From: Lachnospiraceae bacterium
Lineage (GTDB): Bacteria; Bacillota; Clostridia; Lachnospirales; Lachnospiraceae
Length of the DNA: 57,301 bases
Assembly (NCBI GenBank): GCA_015057615.1
Contig: SVEA01000116.1
Span: 1 to 57,301 of the forward strand
Direction: 5' to 3'
Below are positions 8,085 to 27,703 of this stretch, piece by piece. Position numbers and translations under genes: made by a program. Below the pieces are notes generated by a model, which made no database searches, had not been told where the DNA came from, and saw only the letters and a list, made by a program, of their open reading frames with translations. How positions within the stretch are numbered: the first letter of the stretch is position 1; every line of letters starts with the position of its first letter.

Positions 8085-10481
8085 ATGGTAAGTTGTGTGA
8101 GACAGAGTCCGCATGAACTCGCAGAATATATAGATTCGATTGAAAACAACGAACTGGAATATACGGATAAAACAAAAGCATTTGAAGAAACCGAAATTTG
8201 CAAAGATGCAGAAATGGATGAAGATTTAGAAACTAGAATAGATGTGAAAGCTGATAATGCTAATGCTATAGGAACTCATAATGAAGATACAAAAGCTCAT
8301 AAGGATATAGAAGATTATAATGATACGGAAACACTCAAAGTTATATTAGATCATGATAATATGGAAACGCTCAAAGTTATAGTAGATTATGATAATGCAG
8401 AAATATGTAAAGATATAGAAGATCAGGATGATATGGAAACGCCCAAAGATATAGAAGATCAGGATGATACGGAAACGCCCAAAGATATAGAAGATCAGGA
8501 TGATACGGAAACGCCCAAAGATATAGAAGATCAGGATGATATGGAAACGCCCAAAGATATAGAAGATCAGGATGATACGGAAATGCTCAAAGTTATAGAA
8601 GATCAGGATGATACGGAAATGCTCAAAGTTATAGTAGATTATGATGATGCCAGGACAGATGAAGATACCAAAGCTTACGAAGAAACAGAAGTTTTTAAAG
8701 ATACCAAGGCGGATGAAGATATGAAAACTTGTAAAGATCCCGAAGTTTCCGAAGAAACAGAAGCTTTTGATGACTCAGAAACTTTTGAAAACAAAGAAAA
8801 TTTTGATGTTGAAGTAGATTATAAAGAAGAGAATTATAGAGAAGAGAATTATAAAGAAGATTATAAAGAAGAGAATTACAAAGATGCGGGAGCTTTTAAA
8901 GAATCAGTAGGATGGGAAAAAAGAGAAGAATATGAAATGCTAGACCCGACCGATCCGGAAACTATCCCCAAATTTGTAGATTCATTGCCGATTCCTAAAA
9001 TAGCAAGACCAACTAGACCATATGATTCATCGAATAAAGAATTATTCTATAAAATAACGATGCGGGAAGCAAAACATAAATTTCATAGGTACTTTCCACC
9101 AACAACCATTTTCGGATATAATGGGACCTATCCTGGGCCTACGATAGAAGTTCCAAAGGATGTTACCGTTAAAGTAAAATGGGAAAATAAATTACCTAAG
9201 AAACACCTTCTCCCGGTAGACCATACGCTGCATGGAACAATGGATACACCGGATGTTAGGACCGTTGTACATCTTCATGGTGCTAATGTAGCAGCGGATA
9301 GTGACGGTCATCCGGAAGCATGGTTTTCAAGAGACAATGAATATATTGGTTCGAAATATACGAGAGAAGTTTATGAATATTCGAATCATCAAGCAGGAGC
9401 AACCCTATGGTATCATGATCATGCGCTGGGAATTACAAGGTTGAATGTTTATTCTGGATTGGCAGGATTCTACCTGATACGAGATTATTTAGAAGATAGG
9501 CTGAATTTACCGAAAGGTGACTATGAAATACCAATTATGATACAGGATAAAACCTTTCATAAGGACGGTTCCTTATTCTACCCAGATAATACAACGCCTC
9601 CTATTGATAATCCTGTTCCATCTACACCATCCGCATTCTTTGGAAACACCATAGTGGTTAATGGAAAGCTTTGGCCATACCTGGAGGTGGAACCCCGCAA
9701 ATACAGATTCCGTATTTTAAATGCATCCAATCTGCGTTCGTATACCATTGCATTAAGTAACGGGGAGGTATTCCACCAGATCGGTACGGATCAAGGATTA
9801 TTACACCACGTTAAGGATATTAAATCCTTTCTTTTAGAACCTGCGGAAAGAATTGATCTTATCGTTGATTTCTCGAAATACAAAGGACAGGAGATTATTT
9901 TACAAAATACGGCACAGACACCACCAAGCCCCGGAATGGAGCTTATCATGAAATTTATTGTAGGTAAAGAATTAAAGTATCTGGATACCAGTACCATTCC
10001 GAAGGAGTTAATGCCATTCCACCAGATCGACCCGGCTTTGGCGGTAAAAGAGAGGACGATGATTTTAGATGAAACAAAAGATCATTATGGAAGAACGTTA
10101 CATTTGCTTAACAACAGAATGTGGAGTGATCCAGTAACCGAAAAGGTGAAACTGGACACCATAGAAATATGGCATCTGGTTAATAACTTTGACTTTCCGC
10201 ACCCAATTCATATTCATCTGGTTCAATTTGAAATATTAGGAAGAAAAGTATTTACAGAAGATGATTTCGATGAGGAAGGAAATTACAAATTTATTCCGGA
10301 AAATCTAACACCGCCTTCGGATTTTGAAACGGGACCGAAGGATGTCGTAAGAGCGGAGCCCGGGCAGGTAACATCCATTGTTATGCATTTCAAAGAGCAT
10401 ACTGGAGATTATGTATGGCATTGCCATATATTGGAGCATGAAGATAACGATATGATGAGGCCTCTTGTGATTAAAAAATGA
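8085..10481 (+). CDS. CotA-like multicopper oxidase with acidic repeat domain
   Basis: A 798-aa protein in two parts. Residues 1 to about 310 are highly acidic and low in complexity and include nine 12-residue repeats (residues 74-181). About 320-798 is a three-cupredoxin multicopper oxidase close to the spore-coat laccase CotA. Copper ligands are complete: H396/H398 (HLHG), H444/H446 (WYHDH), H706/H709/H711 (HPIHIH), H779-C780-H781 (HCHILEH), with type 1 ligands H706, C780, H785 and M790 at CotA spacing. No signal peptide is seen, as expected of a coat protein assembled from the mother cell. ATG follows AGGGGAGG. Use of oxygen is known for CotA; in this anaerobic setting the substrate is open. 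Confidence 0.9.
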   Translation: MVSCVRQSPHELAEYIDSIENNELEYTDKTKAFEETEICKDAEMDEDLETRIDVKADNANAIGTHNEDTKAHKDIEDYNDTETLKVILDHDNMETLKVIVDYDNAEICKDIEDQDDMETPKDIEDQDDTETPKDIEDQDDTETPKDIEDQDDMETPKDIEDQDDTEMLKVIEDQDDTEMLKVIVDYDDARTDEDTKAYEETEVFKDTKADEDMKTCKDPEVSEETEAFDDSETFENKENFDVEVDYKEENYREENYKEDYKEENYKDAGAFKESVGWEKREEYEMLDPTDPETIPKFVDSLPIPKIARPTRPYDSSNKELFYKITMREAKHKFHRYFPPTTIFGYNGTYPGPTIEVPKDVTVKVKWENKLPKKHLLPVDHTLHGTMDTPDVRTVVHLHGANVAADSDGHPEAWFSRDNEYIGSKYTREVYEYSNHQAGATLWYHDHALGITRLNVYSGLAGFYLIRDYLEDRLNLPKGDYEIPIMIQDKTFHKDGSLFYPDNTTPPIDNPVPSTPSAFFGNTIVVNGKLWPYLEVEPRKYRFRILNASNLRSYTIALSNGEVFHQIGTDQGLLHHVKDIKSFLLEPAERIDLIVDFSKYKGQEIILQNTAQTPPSPGMELIMKFIVGKELKYLDTSTIPKELMPFHQIDPALAVKERTMILDETKDHYGRTLHLLNNRMWSDPVTEKVKLDTIEIWHLVNNFDFPHPIHIHLVQFEILGRKVFTEDDFDEEGNYKFIPENLTPPSDFETGPKDVVRAEPGQVTSIVMHFKEHTGDYVWHCHILEHEDNDMMRPLVIKK
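8304..8627 (+). repeat. nine tandem 36-bp coding repeats
   Basis: Units of 36 bp encode variants of DIEDQDDTETPK. The three 5' units are diverged. Units at 8412, 8448, 8484 and 8520 are nearly identical, which suggests recent slippage or unequal exchange. The next unit starts to drift again, and a partial tenth copy follows at 8628. The repeat stays in frame with the oxidase. Confidence 0.9.
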
Positions 10482-10868: not shown

Positions 10869-11411
10869 ATGGAAGATAATATGTTTGAGCTATTACAATT
10901 AAAAAAACAAGAGAAGGAGATTGCAGCATTAGTTTCTTGTAATAAAGAAACGGAACAATTTGGTCTTGTTCTATCAAATGAAGAAGCAAAAGATCTGGTA
11001 ATAAGCAGAAATGAAAGCTTGAAAAAATATCAGCGGATTGAATTCGGGGAAAGTATACTGGACAAATTGATTTATTACTTTTGTGACTCCCAGTATATTA
11101 CACAGGACATTTATGCAGAAACATTAATGGAGCTTCAGGATATTTTTTATCTGTATAAAAATGAATCCGGTGATTTATTAACCGATGATGAATTGCTGAC
11201 ATTTATGAAGGAGCAGTTTGAAAGTGTCTGCACAGGTGATACGGACTATCTTGCCGATACCTGTTTGGAACGATTTGCACAAGCTATTCGGGCGGGATAT
11301 ACAGGATATATGGAATCCGGCGGTCATAATGAATATGAGAAGTTTGATGAGGAGCAACGATGGGATAAAGATTTGTATTTGCAGGTGCTTGCAGAATTGT
11401 GCTGGAGATAA
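10869..11411 (+). CDS. uncharacterised protein, DUF6323-like
   Basis: A 180-aa cytoplasmic, acidic, helical protein. I associate its pattern (FGLVLSNEEAKDLVISRNE, the helix ending in YFCDSQYI, and a YAETLMELQDIFYLYKNE stretch) with the DUF6323 family of Clostridia, which has no known function. The next gene resembles DUF6179, its usual partner. No membrane segment, signal or catalytic motif is evident. The start has AGAGGA 8 bp upstream. The family name is from memory and needs a profile search. Confidence 0.6.
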   Translation: MEDNMFELLQLKKQEKEIAALVSCNKETEQFGLVLSNEEAKDLVISRNESLKKYQRIEFGESILDKLIYYFCDSQYITQDIYAETLMELQDIFYLYKNESGDLLTDDELLTFMKEQFESVCTGDTDYLADTCLERFAQAIRAGYTGYMESGGHNEYEKFDEEQRWDKDLYLQVLAELCWR

Positions 11412-11482
11412 GAGTGAATCGTTTTGCAAAAAACCTGAGAACCTAAAGTATTGCTTAAATGCAAGCCAAACGTCTTGCTTAG

Positions 11483-12478
11483 ATGCAAACTGCCCAAAGA
11501 ATAGCAGAAGCAGCTATTCTTTGGGAGTTAGTGCACCAGGCATTGGCGTTAGAAACGAGGGAGAATATGGAATATAGTGCAGAAGAGCTTTTACCAATCG
11601 TTGAAAAGCTTACCAGAGAATACACATCGAATGAGAGCAGTTCGGTCACCTATGAAACTGCAAGAATGTTAATGCGTGCCGTACTGTACTGTATGGATGC
11701 ATATACGGATGAAAATCCATGCGAAAATGTGGAGGGGAGTGAGAACGGATATGAGTTATTCTCGGCGAATGAGAAACCGAATGCAGAGATGATTTACCGG
11801 CGTGGGTATGACCGGGTAGTTGCTAAAGTATATCAGGCAAAAGAATTTTACAATGGTATCATCGAACAATTTCAGGATTTTCATTGCAGAAATTGCCGTG
11901 ACACTATAATTAAGGGAATTCCTCAGTTCTTCTTAAGGTATGATCCGAGATTTAAACCCTATGATCATATTCTTACCCTCGATTACCCTACGGTAAAGCC
12001 TCTGGATGCCCTCTGTGGTATCGATGCGATTTCCTTATATTTACGTAATATTAAAACAGAGTGGAGCTTTTTAAATGCGTTTGATCCAAAGCGTGTTGAG
12101 GCTTTACTGGAACGAATAATCCCGGATTATAAAAATCTATTCCTAGATAATATCAGCAATGCCGTGTTGCTAACCAGTATCGGGTGTATTTTAGCTGGGA
12201 AACCGGTAGGGATGCTGAAGCTTCAAAGAAATGACATGGAGCTTATAAAAGGCTTCTTCGGGGATGCTTCGGAGGAAAAGGCGGAGCAAAAAATACGTAT
12301 GTTAATTTCAAAGCTATTTCGCAGCGGCTTTCCCGAAAATACAGAATTAGAAGAATATTTCCTATCTACGAGTAAGGAATATGCGTTTCGGATCGTGAAT
12401 GGTATAAAATATAATTCACTGGCAGGAGTATTTGATTTGACCGATAGCATGATAGGAGTGACAAAAGCCGATTTATAA
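11483..12478 (+). CDS. uncharacterised protein, DUF6179-like, possibly N-terminally shortened
   Basis: A 331-aa protein resembling DUF6179: NESSSVTYETARMLMRAVLYC, the YRRGYDRVVAKVYQAKEFY helix and the LRNIKTEWSFLNAF region. It follows the DUF6323-like gene by 71 bp. The start is uncertain. ATG 11483 comes right after an in-frame TAG and has no ribosome site, while ATG 11567 has GAGGGAG just ahead and would give 303 aa. Family members as I recall them have a longer N-terminus, so a truncated or shifted start is possible. The last codons (KADL) lie inside a dispersed repeat shared with 37.2 kb. Confidence 0.55.
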   Translation: MQTAQRIAEAAILWELVHQALALETRENMEYSAEELLPIVEKLTREYTSNESSSVTYETARMLMRAVLYCMDAYTDENPCENVEGSENGYELFSANEKPNAEMIYRRGYDRVVAKVYQAKEFYNGIIEQFQDFHCRNCRDTIIKGIPQFFLRYDPRFKPYDHILTLDYPTVKPLDALCGIDAISLYLRNIKTEWSFLNAFDPKRVEALLERIIPDYKNLFLDNISNAVLLTSIGCILAGKPVGMLKLQRNDMELIKGFFGDASEEKAEQKIRMLISKLFRSGFPENTELEEYFLSTSKEYAFRIVNGIKYNSLAGVFDLTDSMIGVTKADL

Positions 12479-12886: not shown

Positions 12887-15232
12887 TTGGGCAAAAAGAA
12901 CGAAATACCTTCCGGATTGTATCGCTTCCTGGCGGGCTATCATGTGAAAAAGGATGACATTATAGCACATGCGGAGACGGACATGAATCTGGAGGGAGAA
13001 TTTGCAAGAGGGTATGTGATACTGACCGAAAAGAAGTTGATTGTTGTGACTTCGGAACCGGATCGAACCGAGGTGTATCAATTTAAGGGAGCTGGAAATC
13101 TTCAGGATCTTCACCGACAGAAGGAGAAAGCATGGGCGGCACAGTTCTATTCGGTCGATGAGCTGGAGCGGTTGGAGGTGCTTCGAACCGTCTGCGGCGG
13201 CGTATTGTATTCGACATCGAAGAGAGATGCTCCCGGCAGTGTTCCCGACGTACAGCTGACGGCAATGACGAATATGAAGATGGGAGATATCCTTCGAATC
13301 GTAAAGCTCTTTGACATCTTAAAGGAGAAGAAAGCTCTGACCGAGGAGGATCTTAAGGCGGAGGATCAGGAGGAATACTGTCCGAAATGCGGGACTATGT
13401 ATCCGGATAAGAATCGTAAGATCTGTCCGAAGTGTATGGACCGGCGGTCGATATTTGTCCGTTCCCTATCCTACTTTGCACCTTATAAATTCAAAATTGC
13501 ACTGATGATGGTATGCTATATTGTAACGGCAGGGCTTAATCTAGTGTGGCCTTATCTGAGCGGTACCATTTTATATGACAGAATACTGGCAAAAGATGAG
13601 CATTTCCTTCAAATCCTTGGCATACCGGGAATGAAATTTGTCACAGCACTGGGCTTAATTGTACTGACCATGCTGCTTACGAAGATTACTCTGCAGGCGG
13701 TCGGTATCCTGCAGGGAATCATGACCGCTACCATCGTTCCTGATGTAGTAAAGGAGATGAAGACCGAGGTGTTCCGGTCTATGGGAAAGCTCTCCATCGG
13801 ATTCTATAACAAGCGCCAGACGGGAAGCCTTATGACCCGGGTATTAAGTGATGCAGAACGTGTAACAGGGTTCTTCATTGACGGACTTCCTTATCTGTTT
13901 ATCAATGTGCTTACGATTATCGCAACTGCAATTGTTATGTTTATGATGAACTGGTATCTTGCAGTCCTTGCCCTGATCTTCGTACCGATTATCTTTACCA
14001 TCAGCTTTCGGCTGATGCCGCGGCTGTGGCAGTTCTATGGAAGAAGGCACAGGGCGGAGCGTGCCATGAATTCCCGGCTGAATGACAATCTGACGGGAGC
14101 CCGTGTGGTGAAGGCATTCGGACAGCAGGAAAGCGAGATGGGGCGCTTTGATAAAAATAATAGCAGAGTCCGCAGTGCAGAGATTTCCCTGATGAACTTT
14201 GATAATAAATTTTTTGCATTATACGTGATCTTTGAGCAAATTGCAAATGTAGTAATCTGGGGGGTGGGCTCCTATTTTATCTTATCCGGAACCAATATGG
14301 AATTCGGTGTTCTCATGACCTTCGTGGGCTATGCACAGCAATTGAACGGTCCTCTGGATTTCATGTCCTGGCTGTTCCGCTGGTTTACGGAGAGTATGAA
14401 CAGCGCACAGCGTATCTTTGAAATCATCGATGCGGTGCCGGAGATTACGGAGAAACCGGAGCCCGTACATATGGAGAGCATACGGGGAGATATCCGGCTT
14501 AAGGATGTAACCTTTGGGTATGAACCGAACAAGCCGGTGCTGAAAAAGATCAATTTGCAAATTGAGGCAGGGAAGATGCTGGGTATCGTTGGACGATCCG
14601 GTGCGGGCAAATCGACACTGGTCAACCTGATTTCCAGACTCTATGATCCCCAGGAGGGAGAGATATTCTTAGATGGGGTTAATATTAAGGATATTGCCTT
14701 TCAGGCTCTTCGAAAAAATGTAGCGATGGTATCGCAGGAGACGTATATCTTTATGGGTACCGTAGCGGAAAATATCGCCTATGCCAATGCGACAGCTTCC
14801 AGAGAGGAGATTATCAATGCGGCGGTTCTTGCCAGTGCGCATGATTTCATCTGCCGGATGCCAGATGGCTATGATACCATGATCGGCTCCTCCGGAAGAA
14901 ATCTGTCCGGCGGGGAACGCCAGCGAATCTCCATTGCCAGAGCAATCCTGGCAAATCCGAAGATACTCATCTTAGATGAAGCGACTGCCTCTGTGGATAC
15001 GGAGACGGAGAAGGCGATACAGGCTTCCATTAATTTGTTGATAAAGAATCGAACCATTATATCCATTGCACACCGTCTTTCCACACTTCGAGATGCGGAC
15101 CGCCTGGTAGTTCTTGATGACGGAGAGATTACGGAGGCAGGAACCCATGCCGAGCTGGTTGAGATGAAGGGGACTTATTACAAACTGAAGGAGCTGCAGA
15201 CCAAGGCTCTGGCGCTGCGTGGACTGGAATAA
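12887..15232 (+). CDS. ABC exporter half-transporter with PH-like and zinc-ribbon N-terminus
   Basis: A 781-aa fused membrane-ATPase protein. Residues 1 to about 150 look like a PH/GRAM-type beta domain (GYVILTEKKLIVVTSEP, EVYQFK). A zinc ribbon follows (CPKCGTMYPDKNRKICPKC, about 165-185), then six membrane helices (about 200-490) and an ATPase domain with Walker A GRSGAGKST, signature LSGGERQR, Walker B ILILDEAT and H-loop AHR. The TTG start at 12887 is set by GGGGGG 7 bp upstream. It pairs with the second transporter at 15976 and a DUF1854 protein between them. Canonical motifs in both ATPases suggest two active sites in the heterodimer. The substrate is unknown. Confidence 0.88.
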   Translation: MGKKNEIPSGLYRFLAGYHVKKDDIIAHAETDMNLEGEFARGYVILTEKKLIVVTSEPDRTEVYQFKGAGNLQDLHRQKEKAWAAQFYSVDELERLEVLRTVCGGVLYSTSKRDAPGSVPDVQLTAMTNMKMGDILRIVKLFDILKEKKALTEEDLKAEDQEEYCPKCGTMYPDKNRKICPKCMDRRSIFVRSLSYFAPYKFKIALMMVCYIVTAGLNLVWPYLSGTILYDRILAKDEHFLQILGIPGMKFVTALGLIVLTMLLTKITLQAVGILQGIMTATIVPDVVKEMKTEVFRSMGKLSIGFYNKRQTGSLMTRVLSDAERVTGFFIDGLPYLFINVLTIIATAIVMFMMNWYLAVLALIFVPIIFTISFRLMPRLWQFYGRRHRAERAMNSRLNDNLTGARVVKAFGQQESEMGRFDKNNSRVRSAEISLMNFDNKFFALYVIFEQIANVVIWGVGSYFILSGTNMEFGVLMTFVGYAQQLNGPLDFMSWLFRWFTESMNSAQRIFEIIDAVPEITEKPEPVHMESIRGDIRLKDVTFGYEPNKPVLKKINLQIEAGKMLGIVGRSGAGKSTLVNLISRLYDPQEGEIFLDGVNIKDIAFQALRKNVAMVSQETYIFMGTVAENIAYANATASREEIINAAVLASAHDFICRMPDGYDTMIGSSGRNLSGGERQRISIARAILANPKILILDEATASVDTETEKAIQASINLLIKNRTIISIAHRLSTLRDADRLVVLDDGEITEAGTHAELVEMKGTYYKLKELQTKALALRGLE

Positions 15233-15289
15233 GCACCCGCACGGTTTCGCAATTACCTATTCGATACAGAATTGTTAGGAGGAGTTAAT

Positions 15290-15886
15290 ATGTCAGGTAA
15301 AGTTAAGAAAGCACCTGCCGGAGCAGGGAAGGATAATGCTGATCCAGAGGAGTTTGATTTAGAGAAGATGGAGAAGGAGACGGAGGAAATGCTGCGGCTC
15401 CGCTTTATCACAAGGGATAATGCGGTGTTTGAGCGGACGGAGGGCGGCTTTGTATCTATGAAAATGAAGGGGGAAAGCTATCCGAGAGTGCAGGTATATC
15501 GTTCCTTCCCCTTTACCGATCCGGATGCGTATATCTCCATCCGCGAGGCGGATGAGAAGGCAAGGGAAATCGGGATCATCAAGAATCTAAAGAAGGATGT
15601 CTCCAAAGAAACCAGACAGATGCTGGAGGAGCAGCTTCGCCTGCGCTATTTCACACCGAAAATCGAAAAGATTATTAATATTAAGGACGAGTATGGATTT
15701 GCTTACTTTGATGTATTCACCGACCATGGTGCCTGCCGCTTCACCATCCATATGGGAGGCGGTTCGGTAGTTAATTTATCCGATACCCGCCTCATGATTA
15801 CGGATTTGGATGGCAACCGTTTTGAGATAGCGGATGTGACGAAATTGACGGCACCGGAGCTGAAAAAGCTGGATCTGTTCTTATAA
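15290..15886 (+). CDS. DUF1854 protein
   Basis: A 198-aa soluble protein. The RSFPFTDPDAYISIREAD and EIGIIKNL segments, the TRQMLEEQLRLRYFTPKI helix and the C-terminal DLDGNRFEIADVTKL strand match the DUF1854 pattern. That family is best known beside ABC transporters, including cyanophycin-associated loci in Proteobacteria; no cyanophycin gene is in this window. ATG 15290 follows AGGAGG exactly. It sits between two ABC half-transporters with short gaps of 57 and 89 bp, so it is probably a dedicated accessory subunit or regulator of the exporter. Confidence 0.75.
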   Translation: MSGKVKKAPAGAGKDNADPEEFDLEKMEKETEEMLRLRFITRDNAVFERTEGGFVSMKMKGESYPRVQVYRSFPFTDPDAYISIREADEKAREIGIIKNLKKDVSKETRQMLEEQLRLRYFTPKIEKIINIKDEYGFAYFDVFTDHGACRFTIHMGGGSVVNLSDTRLMITDLDGNRFEIADVTKLTAPELKKLDLFL

Positions 15887-15975
15887 GATTACATATGATA
15901 ACAGCTGTTCTGAGAAATCTTCACATAATAGGTCTGCGGGTTCGCTGCAGGCTATGAAAGGTTAGTGAATATAAT

Positions 15976-18192
15976 ATGGAACTATTATTTGAATTACCCA
16001 GGCAGTTAAAGGAGCTTCTTAAGTTATACCGTGGAGAGGATATCAAGTACTGTGTCCCCTATGATATCGCAGAGGATGGAATCCTTGGGGAGGCGGGATA
16101 TCTTGTGGTTACTCAAAGAAGGCTCTTCATTACCGCCGGGAATCAATTGGCATATGAATGGAAATTAGAGGAGTTAGAGAAAATTAAATGCGAACCGCTG
16201 GTGAATAACGGGATTCTGCTGATTAAGGAATACAAGCAGGACTATGAGAAGAGGGTTATCCGGTTCACCATGCACCATTTGACCAGAATCTCCTTTGCGG
16301 CAAAGGGCGCGGAGCGCCTTAGGGATAAGAATAATCGGCCGGTAAATGCCAAGGAGCGGGAGAAGACCTGTCTAAAGTGCGGCAGGGCATTGCCGGGAAC
16401 CAAGAAATGTCCCAAATGCGACGGCAGGCTGGTGACGGTCCATAAGTTCTGGAACCTGGTAAAGGATTACAAGATGGGACTGTTCTTTATGTTCCTGTTC
16501 TCCGGTATCACGACCATTTTCCATCTATATATACCGGAATATCAGAAGCATTATGTAGATAATATCCTAAAGGCAAAATCCGGTACGGCAAAGGATGTGC
16601 TTGCCTTCGTGGGCGTTATGCTTGCCTTGACGATCGCACTGGTTATTACAGAGGTATTAAAAAACTGGTGGTTCGTATCCCTTGGTGCACGCCTTTGCAT
16701 GGATATCCGAAGGAAGATGTATCACAAGATACAGGAATTATCCCTTTCCTTCATCACGGATAAGCGGCCTGGGGAGCTTATGAACCGGGTGTCACAGGAT
16801 ACAAGAATGATACAGAGATTCATGCAGGAATGCTTTGGGCATATGTTCTCCTGCATTATCACCATGGTGGGTGCCATCACTATCATGCTGTCCATGAATG
16901 TAACCATGACATTGGTATCTGTCGTATTCCTTCCGATCGTATTTTTCATATCCACGGCATTTCGAAAGAACATCCATAAGAGATTTCATTTGCAATGGGT
17001 AAAGAGCGATAAGATTAACAGCTCCTTGCAAGATGTAATCTCCGGTATGCGGGTGGTTAAGTCCTTCGGCAAGGAACAGGAGGAATCGGAGAAGTTCGAC
17101 CGGCTGAGTGAGGAATTTGCTGCCATACAACAAAAAAATGAAATCTTCTGGGCTTCCTTATACCCGGTATTAACCTTTGTTATGAGTATGGGAATCTACT
17201 TCGTTCTGTATCTTGGAGGACGTAATATACTAAATGGCAAAATGACTGTGGGAACCCTGATGCAGTTTAGCGCCTATGCATGGATGTTGTATGGACCACT
17301 TGGCTGGATGACCCATCTTCCGAGAATGATTACGCAGATGGTAACCAGTCTGGAGCGTATCTGCGATGTACTCGATGAGGAGCCGCTGATACTTAACAAA
17401 GAAAATGCCATCGAACATGAGATTAAGGGAGATGTAGAATTTAAAAATGTAAGCTTTGGTTATCGTTCCTACGAACCGGTACTAGAGAAGATCAATTTAA
17501 AGGTAAAGAAAGGGGAAATGATCGGTCTGGTAGGTGCTTCCGGAACTGGTAAGTCCACTATGATCAACCTGATCATGCATCTATATGAGGTGGATGACGG
17601 AGAGTTGCTGATCGACGGACATAATATCAATGACCTTAATATCGAGAAATACCACTCCCAGCTAGGGGTGGTGCTACAGGAAACCTTCCTGTTCTCCGGT
17701 ACGATCTATAATAACATCCGCTTTGCCAAACCAGATGCAACAGAGGAAGAAGTCATCCGTGCATCAAAGATGGCGAATGCCCATGACTTTATTTGCAAGA
17801 CACCGGATGGCTATAATACCTATGTGGGAGAACACGGACATAATATCTCCGGCGGTGAGCGCCAACGTATCGCCATTGCAAGGGCTATTCTGAATAATCC
17901 GAAGCTGTTGATTCTGGATGAGGCGACCTCCAGTCTGGATACGGAGAGCGAATACCTAATTCAGAAAGCGCTGGAGCGTTTGACGGAAGGAAGAACTACC
18001 TTTGCCATCGCACACCGGTTATCCACCCTGCATGGAGCGGACCGTCTGGTGGTTATTGACGGACATAATATCGCAGAGATCGGAACCCATAATGAGCTGA
18101 TGGAGAAGAAGGGCATCTATTATAGGCTTGTTACGGCACAGCTACAGATGCAGAAACTAAAGGAAGAGAAGGAAGAAGCACTGGGAGCGTGA
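15976..18192 (+). CDS. second ABC half-transporter with PH-like and zinc-ribbon N-terminus
   Basis: A 738-aa paralogue of the first transporter. The N-terminal beta-rich domain (YLVVTQRRLFITAGN, about 40-60) is followed by a compact zinc ribbon CLKCGRALPGTKKCPKC (about 134-150), six membrane helices (about 170-460) and an ATPase with GASGTGKST, ISGGERQR, LLILDEATS and AHR. Both halves keep all catalytic motifs. The shared N-terminal layout shows the two arose by duplication of an already fused gene. The last gene of the operon; a purine-rich tract follows. Confidence 0.88.
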   Translation: MELLFELPRQLKELLKLYRGEDIKYCVPYDIAEDGILGEAGYLVVTQRRLFITAGNQLAYEWKLEELEKIKCEPLVNNGILLIKEYKQDYEKRVIRFTMHHLTRISFAAKGAERLRDKNNRPVNAKEREKTCLKCGRALPGTKKCPKCDGRLVTVHKFWNLVKDYKMGLFFMFLFSGITTIFHLYIPEYQKHYVDNILKAKSGTAKDVLAFVGVMLALTIALVITEVLKNWWFVSLGARLCMDIRRKMYHKIQELSLSFITDKRPGELMNRVSQDTRMIQRFMQECFGHMFSCIITMVGAITIMLSMNVTMTLVSVVFLPIVFFISTAFRKNIHKRFHLQWVKSDKINSSLQDVISGMRVVKSFGKEQEESEKFDRLSEEFAAIQQKNEIFWASLYPVLTFVMSMGIYFVLYLGGRNILNGKMTVGTLMQFSAYAWMLYGPLGWMTHLPRMITQMVTSLERICDVLDEEPLILNKENAIEHEIKGDVEFKNVSFGYRSYEPVLEKINLKVKKGEMIGLVGASGTGKSTMINLIMHLYEVDDGELLIDGHNINDLNIEKYHSQLGVVLQETFLFSGTIYNNIRFAKPDATEEEVIRASKMANAHDFICKTPDGYNTYVGEHGHNISGGERQRIAIARAILNNPKLLILDEATSSLDTESEYLIQKALERLTEGRTTFAIAHRLSTLHGADRLVVIDGHNIAEIGTHNELMEKKGIYYRLVTAQLQMQKLKEEKEEALGA

Positions 18193-18445
18193 TCTGGTGA
18201 GGGTATGAGAGAGAAGAAGCGCTGAAAATAAGTCGGCAATGGAACAAGAGAAGAAGCACTGGAAATAAGCCAACGATGGGAAAAGAGCAAAGGCGTGGAA
18301 AAGTAAGTTGGTAATAGGATGAGGAAAGAAGTGCTGAAAAGTAAATAATCGGCGATAGAATGAGAAGATGCGGAAAAAAGTAAGATGGCAATAGGATGAG
18401 AAGAGGCGTTGGAAAGTAAATAATCGTAGGTAGAATAAGGAATGG
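18193..18445. repeat. purine-rich degenerate tandem tract
   Basis: About 250 bp of imperfect units of 35-65 bp built on GAATGAGAAGA, GGAAAGTAAATAATCG and GGCAATAGGATGAG. Pyrimidines are rare on the plus strand. There is no start codon with a ribosome site and no terminator-like stem. It lies between the exporter operon and the radical SAM gene and resembles the tracts at 10.5 and 44.9 kb. Confidence 0.65.
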
Positions 18446-18458: not shown

Positions 18459-19295
18459 ATGAAAGTAAATGTCAAAGAGGTAAAGGATTATTTAACCAAG
18501 TCAAATTTACCGGCAAGCGATTATGTAATCAATCCATACATCGGATGTTCTCATGCCTGTAAATATTGCTATGCCTGCTTTATGAAAAGATTTACCGGAC
18601 ATACGGAGGAATGGGGAACCTTTCTTGATGTGAAAGTTTGCAAGAAGCCGATTAATTTGAAGCGGTTAGCGAATAAAAATGTTTTTCTCTCCTCCGTAAC
18701 CGATTGCTATAATATGTATGAAGAAAAGTACAGAGTAACCAGAGATATCATAGAGCAGTTAGTGGATGCTGACTGCTCTGTTGGAATTTCAACAAAGTCC
18801 AAGCTGATATTACGGGATATGGATTTGTTAAAAAGGCTTAAAGATCTGAAGGTCTCCATGTCAATCAATACTCTGGACGAGGAGTTTCGAAAGGATATGG
18901 ATTATGCCTCCAGTATTGCGGATCGCATTGCTACGTTAAAGGAGCTGCATAACCAGGGGATTTATACCGTATTATTCATGTCCCCAATCTTTCCATATAT
19001 CACGGATTTTACAAGCATTATCGAAGCGACGAATGAATTTGTAGAGGAATACTGGTTCGAGAATCTGAACTTACGGGGAAGCTATAAGAAGGTAATATTA
19101 GATTATATTTTTGAAAAATATCCGGAATATGCCCCTGCCTATCAGGCAATCTATGTAAATGGACAGAAAGATTATTGGGAAGCCCTGGCGCTCGAGATAG
19201 AAGATTATTGCCGGGAAAAGGGAATCAAACATAGGAACTATTTTTATCACGAAAAGTTAGTGAAGGAAAAAATAGAAAAAAACAAATTCAGCTAA
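18459..19295 (+). CDS. radical SAM protein, spore-photoproduct-lyase-like group
   Basis: A 278-aa radical SAM enzyme. The [4Fe-4S] triad is C30-x3-C34-x2-C37 in INPYIGCSHACKYCYACF, followed by the usual strand LSSVTDCYNMYEEKY and the VGISTKSKLILRDMDLL region. The N-terminal layout is that of the SPL-like radical SAM family, many members of which have no known substrate; this protein is shorter than genuine SplB and lacks evidence for DNA repair. A decayed fragment of a close paralogue lies at 30733-30841. ATG is preceded by GGAATGGAGA. Confidence 0.8.
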   Translation: MKVNVKEVKDYLTKSNLPASDYVINPYIGCSHACKYCYACFMKRFTGHTEEWGTFLDVKVCKKPINLKRLANKNVFLSSVTDCYNMYEEKYRVTRDIIEQLVDADCSVGISTKSKLILRDMDLLKRLKDLKVSMSINTLDEEFRKDMDYASSIADRIATLKELHNQGIYTVLFMSPIFPYITDFTSIIEATNEFVEEYWFENLNLRGSYKKVILDYIFEKYPEYAPAYQAIYVNGQKDYWEALALEIEDYCREKGIKHRNYFYHEKLVKEKIEKNKFS

Positions 19296-19454: not shown

Positions 19455-21518
19455 GTGGGTATGGCTTATATTAATTCAAGATGCAAAGAAATTCTGAAAT
19501 TATTATTGGCTGCGGAAGATTATGTTCCGGTGCAAAGAATAGCGGTCGAAACGAAGGTATCCAGAAGAAGTATTTATTATGATTTGTGCAAGCTAAATGA
19601 TTGGTTAAGCGTCTATAACATACCAGAACTTGAGGTGGAACGAAGAAAGGGAATTCTAATACCTCAGGAGATTAAAAAGAAGATTGAAAGTATCATAGAA
19701 GATGAAAGCAGAGAAGATAGTTATGTCTTTTCTCCGACAGAACGTGTAAAAATTATTATTTGCTACATTATTCATATGGGAAAACCGGTTTATATTGAGC
19801 AGCTTTCAGAATATTGCCAGGTTAGTAGAAATACTATCTTTAATGATTTACGAATTGTAGTAAATCAATTACAAGAATACAATTTGAGTCTAGCGTATGA
19901 ATCAAAAAAAGGATATCGAATTGAAGGAGACATCATACGAATTAGAGCATTATTCTTCTTATACTTTAATACGTTGATGCCATTGCTAGATAGTGGAGTA
20001 ATGAGTTTTATTAATCATTTAGAAGTAAATCCTTATTATGAGAAACTAAAGAAAATTGAATCGGAATTAAACACAGAATATGTAGACGGAATCTTAATAT
20101 CTTTAGCAGCTTTGCTGCCATTGATGTATAAGAGCTTAGAAAAACCATATTTTCCAAATTTAAGGGTAAATGAAATTAAAAGAACACAAGAATTTCAATT
20201 AGTCAAAGCGTACTTTTCAGATTTGGATGCACAAGAACAAATCTATCTTTGCTTACATTTGTTGGGATCTCGTGTTGCTGTGAAGGGAAATGAAATGTTT
20301 GACAACTCTGCAAATCAATCGGTGTATGAGATAACAAAAGCATTGGTTGCAGAATTTGAAAAGAAAGCATGTGTATTCTTTAATGATAAAGATGAATTAG
20401 AACGAGAATTATTTATGCATATCAATACGTCTCTTTATCGATATCAATATGGTATTCAGATTGGAAATCCGTTATGTAATGATGTAATTCGTGAATATCC
20501 TAACCTGTTTGATATCACCAAATATGTGTGCAAATATCTCGCGCAATTGGTAGGGTTACCGATTTCAGATTCTGAGGTGGCATATCTTGCACTTCATTTT
20601 GGTGCACATCTGAAGGCGTCAAAGCCGTTGAATGAACGAATCCGAATCTTAATCGTTTGTGTCAATGGGGTATCCACCAGCAATATGCTAAAGAAAGAAT
20701 TACAAAAGCTATTACCACAAGCACAGATTGTGGATGTAGTTGCGGCGGTAGATGTCATTCAAGTACAAAACATCTGTGATTTAGTAATATCAACAGTAAA
20801 AATCAAGAGTCTGGTGCCAGTCATTGTGGTGCATCCGATATTAACGGATTATGATAGAAAAGCCATTCTAAGTCATAAATTGATTGCAAAAAAGCGCAAA
20901 TTAAGTGATAGTGATGAATTATTTGATGTGATAAAAAAATATGTGAAAGAGGAAGATTACGAGAAACTAAAGTTAGATTTAGTAAAATATCTATATGTTG
21001 AAAAAGATAACATTCATGTAGAGAAGGAATATACGAGAAAGGGATTGCTAAGTTTTCTAAGCCGTAATCGAATCGATATTACAAAAGAAGAATTTACTTG
21101 GCAAGAAGCTATTCATTTTGCTGGAGAACGTTTAATTCAATACGGAAGTATCGAAAAAAAATATCTTGGTAGGATTGTTTCACAAATCCAGTATTATGGA
21201 CCCTATATGTTTATTGCAAAAGGCTTAGTTCTTGCTCATGCGAAACCGGAAGATGGGGTAAATCACCTTGATGTGTCTATGACGATTTTCAAGAAGGCGG
21301 TAAGATTTTCAGAATATAATGAAGCAAATGTTATCATTACATTGGCGGCGGAAGATCAGGAAAAACACTTGAAGATATTAAAAGACATTATGTCTATCTT
21401 TGCGGAGGAACAGATGGAACATATGAATAAAATAGTAAAGTTAGATTCAGAAGAGGAAATTCTGCATTTTATACAACAATGCATCCATGAGGAAGCCGAT
21501 GAAGAAGAGATAATCTAG
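19455..21518 (+). CDS. BglG-family PRD transcription regulator of the ascorbate PTS
   Basis: A 687-aa multidomain PTS regulator. Two N-terminal helix-turn-helix units (about 1-65 and 90-150), two PRD modules (about 180-400), an EIIB-like domain with Cys402 (CVNGVSTSNM) and a C-terminal EIIA-like domain with His595 (VLAHAKPEDG). Such proteins are switched by PTS phosphorylation of PRD histidines and the EIIB/EIIA residues, tying transcription to sugar flux. GTG 19455 lies 6 bp from GAGGTGG; ATG 19461 is the alternative. It is followed by a terminator and the ula-type genes, its likely target. Confidence 0.9.
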   Translation: MGMAYINSRCKEILKLLLAAEDYVPVQRIAVETKVSRRSIYYDLCKLNDWLSVYNIPELEVERRKGILIPQEIKKKIESIIEDESREDSYVFSPTERVKIIICYIIHMGKPVYIEQLSEYCQVSRNTIFNDLRIVVNQLQEYNLSLAYESKKGYRIEGDIIRIRALFFLYFNTLMPLLDSGVMSFINHLEVNPYYEKLKKIESELNTEYVDGILISLAALLPLMYKSLEKPYFPNLRVNEIKRTQEFQLVKAYFSDLDAQEQIYLCLHLLGSRVAVKGNEMFDNSANQSVYEITKALVAEFEKKACVFFNDKDELERELFMHINTSLYRYQYGIQIGNPLCNDVIREYPNLFDITKYVCKYLAQLVGLPISDSEVAYLALHFGAHLKASKPLNERIRILIVCVNGVSTSNMLKKELQKLLPQAQIVDVVAAVDVIQVQNICDLVISTVKIKSLVPVIVVHPILTDYDRKAILSHKLIAKKRKLSDSDELFDVIKKYVKEEDYEKLKLDLVKYLYVEKDNIHVEKEYTRKGLLSFLSRNRIDITKEEFTWQEAIHFAGERLIQYGSIEKKYLGRIVSQIQYYGPYMFIAKGLVLAHAKPEDGVNHLDVSMTIFKKAVRFSEYNEANVIITLAAEDQEKHLKILKDIMSIFAEEQMEHMNKIVKLDSEEEILHFIQQCIHEEADEEEII

Positions 21519-21552
21519 GTTTATATATTGAGTAAACTTAAAAAAGATAGCT

Positions 21553-21602
21553 AAAAAAGAAGGAATAAGAGCGGTTGATGTTCTTATTCCTTCTTTTTTA
21601 TA
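21553..21602 (+). terminator. intrinsic terminator after the PRD regulator
   Basis: AAAAAAGAAGGAATAAGA (21553-21570) pairs perfectly with TCTTATTCCTTCTTTTTT after a 10-nt loop. The arms provide A and T runs on both sides, so it could act in both directions. Confidence 0.92.
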
Positions 21603-22020
21603 TGGGAAAAGTTCTCCGAACTTACCTATCTTTCTTATCGAATGTTGTCAGCTTCCGACAGAATAGAGTGAAAGTTTTTTTGAAAGTTTAACACTGTAAT
21701 GTGCAAAAGTGAATGAAAACACCGAAACACGCACCTGCAATGTGCAAGATTAGACGTTTAAATTTGACTACACATTAGCATGAAAGCGGTCCTTAAGGGT
21801 TAAAATAGAAGTAAAATGCAAGCTTTTATGTATCAGCGTCTTATTTTTGGAAATTGTAATTTGAATTTTGAGATAAGGGTACAAGTCTTGCACAAATTAC
21901 GAACGTTTCTTGTACTTCAATTTAAAATACCAAGATGATATGATTAGGTCATAAAAAAGCGGAATAAATTATCAAACATTATTTGATAGAGGAAAACTAT
22001 AAGTAAAGGAGATAGCGGTT
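21603..22020. promoter_or_regulatory. long leader/control region of the ascorbate locus
   Basis: About 420 bp without a gene between the regulator's terminator and the lactonase gene. Two related words, TGTAATGTGCAAAAG (about 21692) and TGCAATGTGCAAGATTAG (about 21737), are good candidate regulator sites. TGAAAGCGGTCC at 21781 is only a weak match to a catabolite-response element. The lactonase RBS AAAGGAGA is at about 22006-22013. The promoter is not certain. Confidence 0.4.
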
Positions 22021-23124
22021 ATGAGTAAAGTAAATGAGATTACAAGAGAAAGTTGGATTATGAGTACATTTCCTGAATGGGGAACTTGGTTAAACGAAGA
22101 GATTGAACAAGAAAAAGTTCAGCCAGGAAATGTTGCAATGTGGTGGTTAGGCTGTACAGGACTTTGGGTGAAAACTCCTGGGGAGTGTAATATTACAATT
22201 GACCTTTGGTGTGGTAATGGAAAACGTACGCATGGAGATGGAACCATGAAAGTCGGTCATCAGATGGCAAATATGTGTGGGGCAAGAAAGATGCAACCAA
22301 ACTTAAGGGCAATACCATTCGTAATTGACCCATTTGCAATCAAACAAGTAGATGCCGTATTAGCGACTCATTATCATCAAGATCATATGAGTGCAGAATA
22401 TGCAGCACATGTCATTCAAAGTGGTATGACAACAGTAGATAATAATAACAATGAAATTCCTGTTCCATTTATCGGACCTAAGAAATCCGTGGAATTATGG
22501 CAAAAATGGGGTGTTCCAGCAGACAGATGTATTACAGTAAAACCAGGAGATACTATTAAAATAAAAGATCTTGAGATTGTAGCACTTGATTCTTTTGATC
22601 GTACTTGTCTTGTAACGACAGACTCCCAAGGTCCAGACCGGGAAGAACTAACAGGAGTTTGTCCAACAGATATGGATGAAAAAGCAGTGAATTTCCTAAT
22701 TAAGACACCAGGTGGAAACATTTATCACAGCGGTGATTCTCATTATTCCATCTATTTTGCAAAACACGGTAAAGATTATGATATTGATGTAGCATTTGGT
22801 TCCTACGGTGAAAATCCAATCGGAATGGCAGATAAAATGACATCCTCCGACATCCTTCGTATGGCAGAAGCATTACAGTGTAAAGTAGTAATTCCAATTC
22901 ACTATGATGTTTGGACGAACTTTATGGCAGATGTAAATGAAATACGTGTGCTATATGATATGAAAAAAGACCGTTTGGATTACAAATTCCACCCATTCTT
23001 CTGGGAAGTAGGCGGAAAATATACCTACCCAGCAGATAAAGATAAAAAAGCATACCATCACAGAAGAGGGTTTGAGGATTGTTTTGAAGCACCACAAAAT
23101 ATACCATTCCGTTCTTTGTTATAG
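22021..23124 (+). CDS. ulaG: L-ascorbate-6-phosphate lactonase (UlaG-like)
   Basis: A 367-aa metallo-beta-lactamase-fold hydrolase. UlaG opens the lactone ring of L-ascorbate 6-phosphate after PTS import. The metal motif is H117-x-H119-x-D121-H122 ([13 protein letters not shown]). Later ligands are seen in [12 protein letters not shown] and [10 protein letters not shown], and the [13 protein letters not shown] start is typical of UlaG. Length is near E. coli UlaG (about 354 aa). First structural gene of the locus; EIIA follows 23 bp later. Confidence 0.92.
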
Positions 23125-23147
23125 AATCGAACGAAGGAGAATTAGAA

Positions 23148-23603
23148 ATGTTAAGAGAATTTGTAGAAAAGAAACATTGTAAATTTGCAACAGAAGCAAA
23201 AGATTGGAAAGAAGCAATTCGTATGAGTTGTGAAACTTTAGAAGCAGATGGCTCAGTAGAAGGAAACTATAAGGAAGATATCATCAAATGTGTTGAAGAA
23301 TATGGTCCTTATATCGTAATTGTACCAAATGTAGCGATGCCACATTCCCAAGAAGGAGCAGCGGGAGTTCATAAAACTACCATAGGGTTTATGAAGTTAG
23401 AAAAGCCGGTTAGCTTTGAATTAGGAAATGCGGAGAAGGATGCACAGTTATTTTTTACGTTAGCATCTTGTAATTCAGAAGAACATTTAAATAATATGGC
23501 ACGTTTATCTGAAATATTAAGCAATGAAGAGTTACTTATAGAGCTTGCTAGAGCCAATTCAACCGAGGATATATTAAGATTGCAGGAGAAGTTTTTAGAC
23601 TAG
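23148..23603 (+). CDS. ulaC: PTS EIIA component, ascorbate type (UlaC-like)
   Basis: A 151-aa type-2 EIIA domain. The phosphoryl-accepting histidine is H66 in VPNVAMPHSQEG, followed by the usual GFMKLEKPVSF strand. It accepts phosphate from HPr and passes it to the separate EIIB at 25275. Its sequence resembles the EIIA-like end of the PRD regulator, as expected. Good RBS (GAAGGAGA). The stop is followed by hairpins before the EIIC gene. Confidence 0.88.
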   Translation: MLREFVEKKHCKFATEAKDWKEAIRMSCETLEADGSVEGNYKEDIIKCVEEYGPYIVIVPNVAMPHSQEGAAGVHKTTIGFMKLEKPVSFELGNAEKDAQLFFTLASCNSEEHLNNMARLSEILSNEELLIELARANSTEDILRLQEKFLD

Positions 23604-23614
23604 CTAAATATGGG

Positions 23615-23725
23615 AGGGCAACGTGAATGTCAATTCACGTGGCAAGTTTGTGTCTGCGCTGCATCCACAAACTTGGATATGCGTATTGTCTCATAAATGA
23701 GCCAACAAAGGCAGCGCAGAAACGA
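23615..23725 (+). repeat. intercistronic hairpin pair and leader, EIIA to EIIC
   Basis: CGTGAAT/ATTCACG (23622-23628/23633-23639) and AAGTTTGTG/CACAAACTT (23644-23652/23666-23674) form two stems. They are followed by GCAGCGCAGAAACGAGGG, which supplies the EIIC ribosome site. A similar GCGCAGAAATGAGG leader occurs at 40991-41006 before another gene. Confidence 0.7.
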
Positions 23726-23733
23726 GGGTAATC

Positions 23734-25212
23734 ATGAATATTATAATGAAAATTTGGGAGTATTTCGCAACTAACATTTTACAACAGCCAGCATTTATGG
23801 TGGGATTAATCGTAGCGATCGGTTATATATTATTAAAAAAGCCATGGTATGATGTTTTGTCAGGAGTCATTAAGGCAATTGTTGGTTACTTAATTCTTAC
23901 GGTGGGTTCTGGCGGTTTAGTTAGTAATTTCCGTCCAGTATTGGTTGGTTTAAAAGATAAGTTTAATCTGGATGCTATGGTAATTGACCCTTATTTCGGA
24001 CAAAATGCAGTGACAATCGGAGTGGAAGAAGTGTTCGGGAAAGGGTTCGGACAAGCAATGGTTTTACTGCTTATCGCTTTTATCGTAAATATTCTTTTGG
24101 TTCGTTTTAGTAAATACACAAAAATGAGAGCATTGTTCACTACTGGACATGTGCAGGTGCAGCAAGCAGCGACAGCATATTGGTTAATCATGTTTGCTTG
24201 CCCGTTCTTGTTGAAAAATAATACAGCATTATTAGTTGTTATGGCAATTATCTTAGGTTTATACTGGGCAGTTGGTTCAAACTTAACGATCAAACCATGT
24301 CAGGATATATCCGATGGTGCTGGATTCTGTTTGGCTCATCAACAGATGTTTGGTATCGCTCTTAACTATTGGTTAGCAGAAAAGTTCTTCGGCAAAAAGA
24401 AAAATGGGAAAGATGTAAAGAAAATTGACGACATTGAACTTCCAGGATTTATGTCTATCTTTAATGAAAATATGGTATGTACTTCTATCTTAATGTTAAT
24501 CTTTTTTGGGGCGATCCTTATCATCTTAGGAAGAGATTATTTAATAGAAGGTGGTTTCATGAAAGAAGGACAGAGCATGGTATTTTACGTAATTCAAACC
24601 TGCTTGTATTTCGCAGTATACCTTGCGATCCTTCAATTAGGCGTAAGAACTTTCGTAACAGAATTAACGCAATCATTCCAAGGTATTGCAGATAAATTAT
24701 TACCTGGTTCAGTACCTGGTGTTGACTGTGCAGTAGCATTTGGTTTTGGTTCTGCCAATGCAGTTCCATTGGGATTTTTAGCAGGATTTGCAGGTCAAAT
24801 TATTGCAATTATTATTTTATTCTTATTAAAGAGTCCGACTCTTGTTATCTGTGGCTTCGTACCTGTATTTTTTGATAATGCAACCATTGCTATCTTTGCA
24901 AATGAAAAAGGCGGTATTAAAGCCGCATTAATTCTTCCATTTATCTCAGGTTTATGTCAGGTATTTGGCTCTGCATTTATCGCAGGCTGGGTTGGAATGG
25001 CTGCATACGGTGGTTACTTAGGTATGTGGGACTGGGCAGTTGTATGGCCCGTAATGACCGTGGTTATGAAATACCTAAGCTATGCCGGTATCGCAATTTG
25101 TGCAATTGCATTAATTCTAATACCACAATTGCAATATAGAAGAGATAAAAAAGGCTACTTTTTGATGACAGAAGATTATGAAGCCTATAAAAAATTAAAA
25201 GAAAAAAATTAA
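23734..25212 (+). CDS. ulaA: PTS EIIC permease, ascorbate type (UlaA-like)
   Basis: A 492-aa membrane permease with about 10-11 hydrophobic segments, the SgaT/UlaA family, which moves L-ascorbate across the membrane with phosphorylation. Diagnostic stretches include GYILLKKPWYDVLSG near the N-terminus, TTGHVQVQQAATAYW, SDGAGFCLAHQQMFG and ADKLLPGSVPGVDCAVAF. Length is slightly above E. coli UlaA (about 465). The order EIIA-EIIC-EIIB within one operon is complete. Confidence 0.93.
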   Translation: MNIIMKIWEYFATNILQQPAFMVGLIVAIGYILLKKPWYDVLSGVIKAIVGYLILTVGSGGLVSNFRPVLVGLKDKFNLDAMVIDPYFGQNAVTIGVEEVFGKGFGQAMVLLLIAFIVNILLVRFSKYTKMRALFTTGHVQVQQAATAYWLIMFACPFLLKNNTALLVVMAIILGLYWAVGSNLTIKPCQDISDGAGFCLAHQQMFGIALNYWLAEKFFGKKKNGKDVKKIDDIELPGFMSIFNENMVCTSILMLIFFGAILIILGRDYLIEGGFMKEGQSMVFYVIQTCLYFAVYLAILQLGVRTFVTELTQSFQGIADKLLPGSVPGVDCAVAFGFGSANAVPLGFLAGFAGQIIAIIILFLLKSPTLVICGFVPVFFDNATIAIFANEKGGIKAALILPFISGLCQVFGSAFIAGWVGMAAYGGYLGMWDWAVVWPVMTVVMKYLSYAGIAICAIALILIPQLQYRRDKKGYFLMTEDYEAYKKLKEKN

Positions 25213-25274
25213 TGTATTAAGTAATAAAGAGTTACTATGACAATCTGGTATATGACATGAAAGGTAGGAATCGT

Positions 25275-25580
25275 ATGAGTGCAAATAATTTAAAATTTAT
25301 GGTGTGTTGTGCAAATGGAGCAGGATCTAGTTTAATGATGAAAATGACATTACAGAAGGTTTTAGATAAATTAGGAATTAAACCTATGACCATTCATCAC
25401 TGTGCACTTTCCGAAGGAAAAAGTGCATCACTGCAATACGATGTGGTATTTTGTGCACAAAATTTTACGAATATGTTTAAAGATGCAGAAAAGAAAGGTG
25501 TTAAAATCATTGGATTACGTAACATCATGTCTGCAAAAGAAATTGAAGAAAAGATGGCAGAACACGGAATTATTGCATAG
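25275..25580 (+). CDS. ulaB: PTS EIIB component, ascorbate type (UlaB-like)
   Basis: A 101-aa EIIB domain. The phosphocysteine is at C12 in the CCANGAGSS loop, right after the first strand, as in UlaB; an adjacent Cys11 is unusual. ATG 25275 follows AGGTAGGAA; an upstream in-frame ATG at 25257 lacks a ribosome site. It is closely followed by the 3-epimerase gene (14 bp gap). Confidence 0.9.
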   Translation: MSANNLKFMVCCANGAGSSLMMKMTLQKVLDKLGIKPMTIHHCALSEGKSASLQYDVVFCAQNFTNMFKDAEKKGVKIIGLRNIMSAKEIEEKMAEHGIIA

Positions 25581-25594
25581 CGGGAGTTGTGGTA

Positions 25595-26440
25595 ATGGAA
25601 AAAGCATATTCATTAGGGCTATATGAAAAATCAATGCCGCCTACTCTTAATTGGAAGGAAAAATTGCTAGCAGCCAAAGAGGCAGGGTTTGATTTTGTTG
25701 AGATTAGTATTGATGAAACAGAGGAAAAGTTAAGTCGACTTGAAATGTCAAAAAAAGAGCGTTTTGAACTCATTCAATTGATGACGGAAACTGGGATATC
25801 CATACGAACTATGTGTCTAAGTGGACATAGAAAATATCCTCTTGGAAGTAGCGATGAAGAGGCATGCCAAAGAGGCATGGAGATTATGAAGAAGGCAATT
25901 GACTTAGCACAAGATTTGGGAATACGTATCATTCAGCTTGCTGGTTACGATGTGTATTATGAAGAATCCACATTACAAACAAAACAAAGGTTTTTAAAGA
26001 ATCTAAAAAAGGCTGCGAACATGGCCGAAAAAGCAGGTGTATTATTAGGATTTGAAACCATGGAAACAGAGTTTATGAATACCGTAGGAAAAGCAATGAA
26101 GTATGTAACCCTTGTGAGTTCCCCATATCTAAACGTATATCCCGACATTGGAAATATTACAAATGCATCCGTTTCTTATGAAACGGATGTATATGAAGAT
26201 TTAGAGCTTGGAAAAGGCCATTTGGTAGCGATGCATTTAAAGGAAACCGTTCCAGGAAAGTTTCGTGAAATCCCATTTGGCATGGGACATGTAGATTTTG
26301 AACAAGCAATTGAGGCTGCATGGAACCTAGGAGTCAGGAAGTTTGTAACCGAGTTTTGGTACACTGGAAATGAACATTGGAAAGAAGATTTGACAGAGGC
26401 ATATCAAATATTTTCAAGGTTATTAGATAAACAAAAGTAA
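25595..26440 (+). CDS. ulaE: L-ribulose/L-xylulose-5-phosphate 3-epimerase (UlaE-like)
   Basis: A 281-aa TIM-barrel sugar-phosphate epimerase. It starts with SLGLYEKSMPP and carries DFVEISIDET, RTMCLSGHRKYPLGS, GFETMETEFMN and YPDIGNI, all recognisable from UlaE/SgbU. The enzyme converts L-xylulose 5-P to L-ribulose 5-P after decarboxylation of 3-keto-L-gulonate 6-P. The UlaD decarboxylase itself is not found in this window, so it must be elsewhere or replaced. ATG 25595 lies 8 bp from GGGAG; GTG 25589 is too close. Confidence 0.9.
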   Translation: MEKAYSLGLYEKSMPPTLNWKEKLLAAKEAGFDFVEISIDETEEKLSRLEMSKKERFELIQLMTETGISIRTMCLSGHRKYPLGSSDEEACQRGMEIMKKAIDLAQDLGIRIIQLAGYDVYYEESTLQTKQRFLKNLKKAANMAEKAGVLLGFETMETEFMNTVGKAMKYVTLVSSPYLNVYPDIGNITNASVSYETDVYEDLELGKGHLVAMHLKETVPGKFREIPFGMGHVDFEQAIEAAWNLGVRKFVTEFWYTGNEHWKEDLTEAYQIFSRLLDKQK

Positions 26441-26463
26441 TTGGAATTAAAGAGGTGACTTAC

Positions 26464-27513: not shown

Positions 27514-27531
27514 TCATAGAAAAAGGGGATA

Positions 27532-27676
27532 GTGCGAATTTTATTAATAAAATTCACACCTCGAAGTTTGTACCTGCGTAATCCTCGGTACAAACTAACC
27601 CGAAGATGCAGGTATTTTAGTTAGTGTGAAAAATCAAGATTTTTCACAAACGAATTAGTGCTGTCGCACTAATTCG
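27532..27676 (+). repeat. array of four hairpins between the propeller and HPr genes
   Basis: In 145 bp: a 20-bp palindrome within GTG...CAC at 27532-27559; AGTTTGTACC/GGTACAAACT at 27565-27574/27587-27596; GTGAAAAATC/GATTTTTCAC at 27626-27635/27638-27647; and CGAATTAGTG/CACTAATTCG at 27651-27660/27667-27676. None has a T-run, so these are more likely RNA processing or attenuation elements, or inserted palindromes, than terminators. Confidence 0.8.
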
Positions 27677-27703
27677 CGGGATTGCGATAAAATGGAGGAT
27701 TAT

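Follow-up and report, generated by a model that had tools for sequence, protein, structure and literature searches.

The closest described relatives of the locus analyzed here are ABC exporters of the TM287/288, BmrCD and MsbA/Sav1866 types, with which it shares a core of transmembrane and nucleotide-binding domains (TMD-NBD), canonical motifs, and two adjoining half-transporter genes. In many heterodimeric drug exporters, one of the ATP sites is degenerate. Among database models, the nearest are NF052233 (CphA_assoc_ABC) and NF052234 (CphA_assoc_prot), where the likeness lies in an ABC exporter with a collinear N-terminal domain plus a DUF1854 protein. A further point of comparison is the export of the leaderless bacteriocin EntDD14, which is abolished by deletion of ddE or ddF; according to the available text of PMC8657885, the PH proteins DdE and DdF are separate, stand-alone proteins, with ddHIJ encoding the ABC transporter beside them. 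In contrast, the triad studied here has predicted PH-like domains fused to both ABC halves. It differs from TM287/288, BmrCD and MsbA/Sav1866 by these N-terminal PH and zinc ribbon domains and by a DUF1854 gene between the halves, from TM287/288 and BmrCD also by having no degenerate ATP site, and from the NF052233/NF052234 systems by two paralogous ABC genes flanking DUF1854 and by a host without cphA over cut-off.

The window, i.e. the whole analyzed stretch of 57,301 nucleotides, is contig SVEA01000116.1 of a Lachnospiraceae bacterium. Its ORF list together with Pfam searches reproduced exactly the coordinates given by a previous sequence-only reading, with a DUF1854 gene between two ABC genes, all on the forward strand. 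The upstream half-transporter ABC1 (12887..15232, 781 aa, PF00664 and PF00005) starts with a TTG that is located a few bases 3' of a G run. The DUF1854 protein (15272..15886, PF08909) comprises 204 aa when counted from its TTG, but translation more likely begins at the in-frame ATG at 15290. The downstream half-transporter ABC2 (15976..18192, 738 aa) again combines PF00664 and PF00005. The transmembrane domains were assigned to 13499..14356 in ABC1 (PF00664, residues 205-490, 9.4e-38) and 16480..17301 in ABC2 (residues 169-442, 4.4e-51), the nucleotide-binding domains to 14540..14989 (PF00005, residues 552-701) and 17482..17931 (residues 503-652), respectively.

With ABC_membrane and ABC_tran in one chain and with intact ATPase motifs, both ABC1 and ABC2 are half-transporters of the type IV ABC exporter kind. 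Walker A, Q-loop, signature, Walker B with the catalytic Glu, and H-loop are present in either protein, the translated signature being LSGGE in ABC1 and ISGGE in ABC2. The intactness of these motifs in both halves, as claimed earlier, extends to the relatives: almost every one of 76 ABC1 and 74 ABC2 rows retains the counted motifs (counts exclude the ABC2 signature, as the pattern searched was LSGGE and ABC2 reads ISGGE). For each motif, one or two rows are gapped, masked or divergent; in addition, 18 of the 76 ABC1 rows show a Glu/Asp change in the Q-loop. Canonical motifs in both halves fit the anatomy of an ABCB-like heterodimer with two putatively working ATP sites. The solved structures closest to ABC2 are those of the ABC exporters ABCB1, ABCB4, Sav1866 and TM288. 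The MsbA model TIGR02203 scored 430.4 bits with ABC1 and 439.9 bits with ABC2, below its cut-off of 602.

The N-terminus of ABC2 (residues 1-118, 15976..16329) is confidently predicted to be of the PH type, the model showing a seven-strand barrel with a C-terminal helix cap, a predicted fold shared with bacterial PH domains (bPH_3, PF14470; DUF1696 structure 3dcx). The sequence match is weak: full-length window proteins gave no match to Pfam PH at E<=1, bPH_3 scored 14.7 bits with the window ABC2 N-terminus (cut-off 23), and it matched 37 of 65 ABC2 N-termini at E<=1 with a best value of 1.2e-4. The corresponding part of ABC1 (approximately residues 1-150, 12887..13336) is homologous to the ABC2 N-terminal family (hhalign probability 99.6%, E 1.9e-23) and is thus predicted to be PH-like as well. 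A predicted zinc ribbon of two CxxC pairs follows in each half, formed by C165, C168, C180 and C183 in ABC1 (13379..13435; Pfam zinc-ribbon matches below cut-off) and by C132, C135, C145 and C148 in ABC2 (16369..16419); the four cysteines are invariant in 59 ABC1 and 65 ABC2 rows. The proposed fusion of a PH-like domain and a ribbon in both halves is therefore supported by the ABC2 model, the hhalign homology and the invariant cysteines, and zinc binding is predicted. Lipid sensing and a zinc sensor, as suggested by the earlier reading, are candidate roles at most: a PH fold by itself is no proof of lipid binding, and four-Cys ribbons are often structural. The same fusion had been called rare among ABC exporters. 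It is not peculiar to the window; rather, it is the norm of the DUF1854-linked ABC family, as the N-terminal domain and the four-Cys ribbon were each present in 208, and both together in 207, of 209 ABC frames of >=700 aa from 120 loci. The frames lacking one of the two domains belong to L152 and L163; further exceptions in a set of 161 loci are the upstream ABC of L235 without ribbon and an ABC protein from Gemmatirosa without either domain. Among ABC exporters at large the fusion may still be rare: the N-terminal profile was found in 41 of 291 genomes of the class Clostridia (1e-4).

The middle protein is a full member of PF08909 (E 1.7e-35 over residues 70-202, profile positions 1-129 of 130, 122.1 bits versus a gathering score of 26.8), a family to which Pfam assigns no function. 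Its predicted model (pLDDT 84) has a disordered start and gave no convincing fold match in the PDB. Action in trans or an enzymatic role would also be conceivable for this protein. A literature search, mostly outside subscription papers and preprints, retrieved no paper on DUF1854, PF08909, NF052233 or NF052234; within that scope, it was fair to call the system undescribed as to function.

The names of the nearest database models point to a cyanophycin-linked transporter that would move cyanophycin, its dipeptides or precursors. NF052233 is the best NCBIfam match of both ABC proteins (ABC1 548.3, ABC2 529.2 bits) and NF052234 that of the DUF1854 protein (80.3 bits), and the N-termini alone match NF052233 with 1.9e-5 (ABC1) and 2e-5 (ABC2), so that the collinear N-terminal domain is shared. 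In the available text of PMC10687191, an ABC gene, which may belong to the present family, adjoins two cphA copies in activated-sludge bacteria; the main text of PMC10206079 does not contain the term 'DUF'. However, the scores are far below the cut-offs of 880 and 150 bits, respectively, and the window proteins are thus relatives rather than members of these families; NF052234 was matched in 15 of 249 genomes of the phylum Bacillota, always below its cut-off. As the earlier reading had stated for the DNA at hand, a cyanophycin gene is missing: no cyanophycin synthetase over cut-off was detected in the 99% complete host genome (best score 131.6 of 850 bits), and none was seen by eye in the ORFs up to 6 kb away from the Gemmatirosa pair. 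In the class, CphA occurs in 60 of 291 genomes (1e-150; 57 over cut-off), and CphA and DUF1854 occur together in five, where approximately ten were expected (Fisher odds ratio 0.38, p 0.053, uncorrected for relatedness), i.e. without a positive association; even among these five, the DUF1854 match of G268 and a CphA fragment in G088 are below cut-off. The counts for this class do not back the database names, and we consider a role in cyanophycin transport highly improbable.

Conservation of the triad was analyzed with the best 80 of 344 loci related to the DUF1854 alignment, whose records are titled Lachnospiraceae, Clostridiales, Clostridia, Eubacterium, Roseburia and similar; for many relatives, the record titles point to an origin from gut and rumen samples. 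The order ABC1-DUF1854-ABC2 on one strand was found in 78 of these 80 loci, in 72 under stricter gene calling, and in 79 when larger frame overlaps were allowed; the one remaining locus (L052) has 1,040 bases upstream of the DUF1854 frame. Under strict calling, the two gaps were <60 bp in 62 and 61 of the 72 loci. Such conservation of the order makes the triad more than a chance arrangement. In one relative (L150, 3791-9926), DUF1854 is separated from ABC1 by a gene that looks kinase-like by eye, and from ABC2 by another gene. Forty further stretches from other genomes of the class and phylum contained 23 pairs, 15 single ABC-DUF1854 systems and two systems called downstream-only; the latter (L160, L178) became pairs once larger overlaps were allowed, giving 25 pairs.

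The check for co-occurrence suggested with the earlier reading showed that 40 of the 41 genomes of the class with the N-terminal profile also carry DUF1854. In the exception (G249), the profile matches a 647-aa frame that runs off the contig, so that the gene following it is invisible. Conversely, DUF1854 was found in 50 of the 291 genomes (49 over cut-off), ten of them without an N-terminal match at 1e-4. Eight of these ten match under a model built from both N-termini; of the other two, G309 is cut by the contig end, and the DUF1854 match of G268 is the one mentioned above as itself below cut-off. Among 61 relatives, DUF1854 was present in ten and the ABC2 N-terminal profile in 11, namely the same ten plus G034, where a 71-aa frame gave a ribbon-only match. 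With 15 of 150 genomes of the host's own family and the ten of 61 relatives, the distribution of DUF1854 is patchy, a pattern more in keeping with an accessory function than with a core one in the envelope. The search reached a single case beyond the phylum, a Gemmatirosa plasmid with one ABC gene and DUF1854 (122.7 bits) behind it. Among genes of at least 90 aa in 81 loci, no steady neighbor was found, the largest family besides ABC-like proteins (by eye) occurring in ten; no Rfam family was detected in the window or in 15 relatives.

In a quick tree of 89 ABC cores, all 36 upstream copies formed one group (support 100), and 35 downstream copies grouped together with L152 (support 95), which was labeled single in the tree and is a pair by the later locus call. 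The remaining 14 singles, one long outgroup row among them, were placed beside the upstream copies. The tree was midpoint-rooted and contains long outgroup rows, so it fixes neither the root nor a common origin; one old duplication from a single-ABC ancestor is likely the simplest reading of these core sequences. The distances of ABC1 and ABC2 are correlated (r 0.97, 92 pairs; none of 999 permutations as high), for which shared species history alone could be sufficient. Two genomes, G157 and G187, each carry both a paired and a single system.

In loci with a single ABC gene, the gene directly 3' of DUF1854 on the same strand often encodes a cyclic-di-AMP receptor (PF06153). The first six such neighbors were seen by eye and confirmed with Pfam, and the search was then carried out in 161 loci, 158 of which had a DUF1854 frame (L254 repeats L164, and L251 repeats part of L221). 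PF06153 follows DUF1854 in 11 loci (L151, L153, L154, L158, L159, L164, L217, L218, L219, L222, L226), each Pfam-confirmed, which are nine distinct singles plus L222, taken as the other half of the split gene of L221, and L226, where only the DUF1854 end is on the contig (E 3.4e-8). According to the genome labels they span six families; because the loci are related, they do not represent 11 independent events. The receptor gene followed DUF1854 in 0 of 127 paired loci, and it was absent behind 15 single loci with downstream sequence, including the Gemmatirosa pair (18 before removal of the repeat L251 and of L161 and L221, which are contig ends). PF06153 is widespread in the class, with matches in 150 of 291 genomes; a further match elsewhere was found in seven of the 11 genomes (G094, G099, G203, G254, G267, G296, G306), and the genome of the window has PF06153 on other contigs only. 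Compared with four unlinked copies, the linked ones look like a separate subfamily.

From gene content, domain homology, conservation and linkage, we infer that the three genes probably encode one machine, in which ABC1 and ABC2 would form a heterodimeric type IV (ABCB-like) exporter and the DUF1854 protein would serve as third subunit or dedicated cytosolic regulator. The pairing of ABC1 with ABC2 is suggested by their linkage and parallel divergence. ATP at two canonical sites would drive alternating access and thereby expel cargo from the cytoplasm or carry it across the membrane, the outward polarity being the presumed one. The PH and zinc ribbon domains would face the cytosol, immediately ahead of the first transmembrane helix, and, together with the soluble DUF1854 protein, may act as a control or loading module. 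As no biosynthesis gene was seen to accompany the triad, the cargo is more plausibly a general cell component, such as an envelope lipid or amphiphile, than a dedicated natural product; this is the weakest step of the proposal. Control of a primary exporter through PH domains of its own and a dedicated partner in the cytosol would represent a new mode, and three soluble pieces, namely the two PH-ribbon domains and DUF1854, are of a size that suits expression and tests.

A heterodimeric multidrug or toxin exporter of the BmrCD/TM287-288 type, with PH domain and ribbon as decoration, would account for the resemblance of the ABC2 core to Sav1866, TM288 and ABCB1, for the patchy distribution and for the missing steady neighbor gene in the 81 loci. 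Yet both ATP sites look canonical, in contrast to the degenerate site of many heterodimeric drug exporters, and a controlled, specific function is favored by the linkage to DUF1854 and by N-terminal domains that are almost fixed, so that we regard this reading as unlikely. Export of a peptide, with the PH domains in the role of DdE and DdF, has a precedent in the loss of EntDD14 export on deletion of either gene; against it stand the separate nature of those PH proteins in the available text of PMC8657885 and the lack of a steady neighbor among the genes of at least 90 aa in the 81 loci, and we judge it very unlikely. The sister systems would allow the proposed exporter to be placed in a cyclic-di-AMP-tied, PH- and zinc ribbon-gated class, in which the older unit was one PH-ribbon ABC protein plus DUF1854, wired in some lineages to its own receptor and in others, including that of the window, duplicated to a heterodimer. 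DUF1854 would then be the adaptor by which the second messenger (turgor, potassium, envelope stress) opens or shuts the pump. Members of the class would export lipids or osmolytes in Bacillota under the control of turgor or the envelope, and a Gemmatimonadota plasmid carries a DUF1854-linked ABC as well. This extension of the one-machine reading is speculative and quite unlikely in our estimate; the linked receptor nevertheless offers a first functional hook that is directly testable.

Upstream of the triad, the window contains a multicopper oxidase gene (8085-10481, Pfam) whose acidic stretch before the enzyme domains is coded by approximately 9.6 copies of a 36-bp repeat (8304-8648), followed by adjoining DUF6323 and DUF6179 genes (10869-12478), both of which were matched only in L019 among 80 loci. 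Directly 3' of ABC2 are two short tandem-repeat arrays with 36-37 bp units (18210-18419). Farther downstream lies a radical SAM gene (18459-19295) resembling 'mobile pair protein B' (321.7 bits, cut-off 410), which was matched in 0 of 80 loci. A PRD/EIIA-type PTS regulator, a beta-lactamase-fold hydrolase and a PEP-utilising enzyme give the stretch 19455-29599 the look of a sugar PTS region. Near three of the related systems, P-type cation ATPase genes were found (L179, 5755-8490; L180, 5652-8387; L186, 12052-14757).
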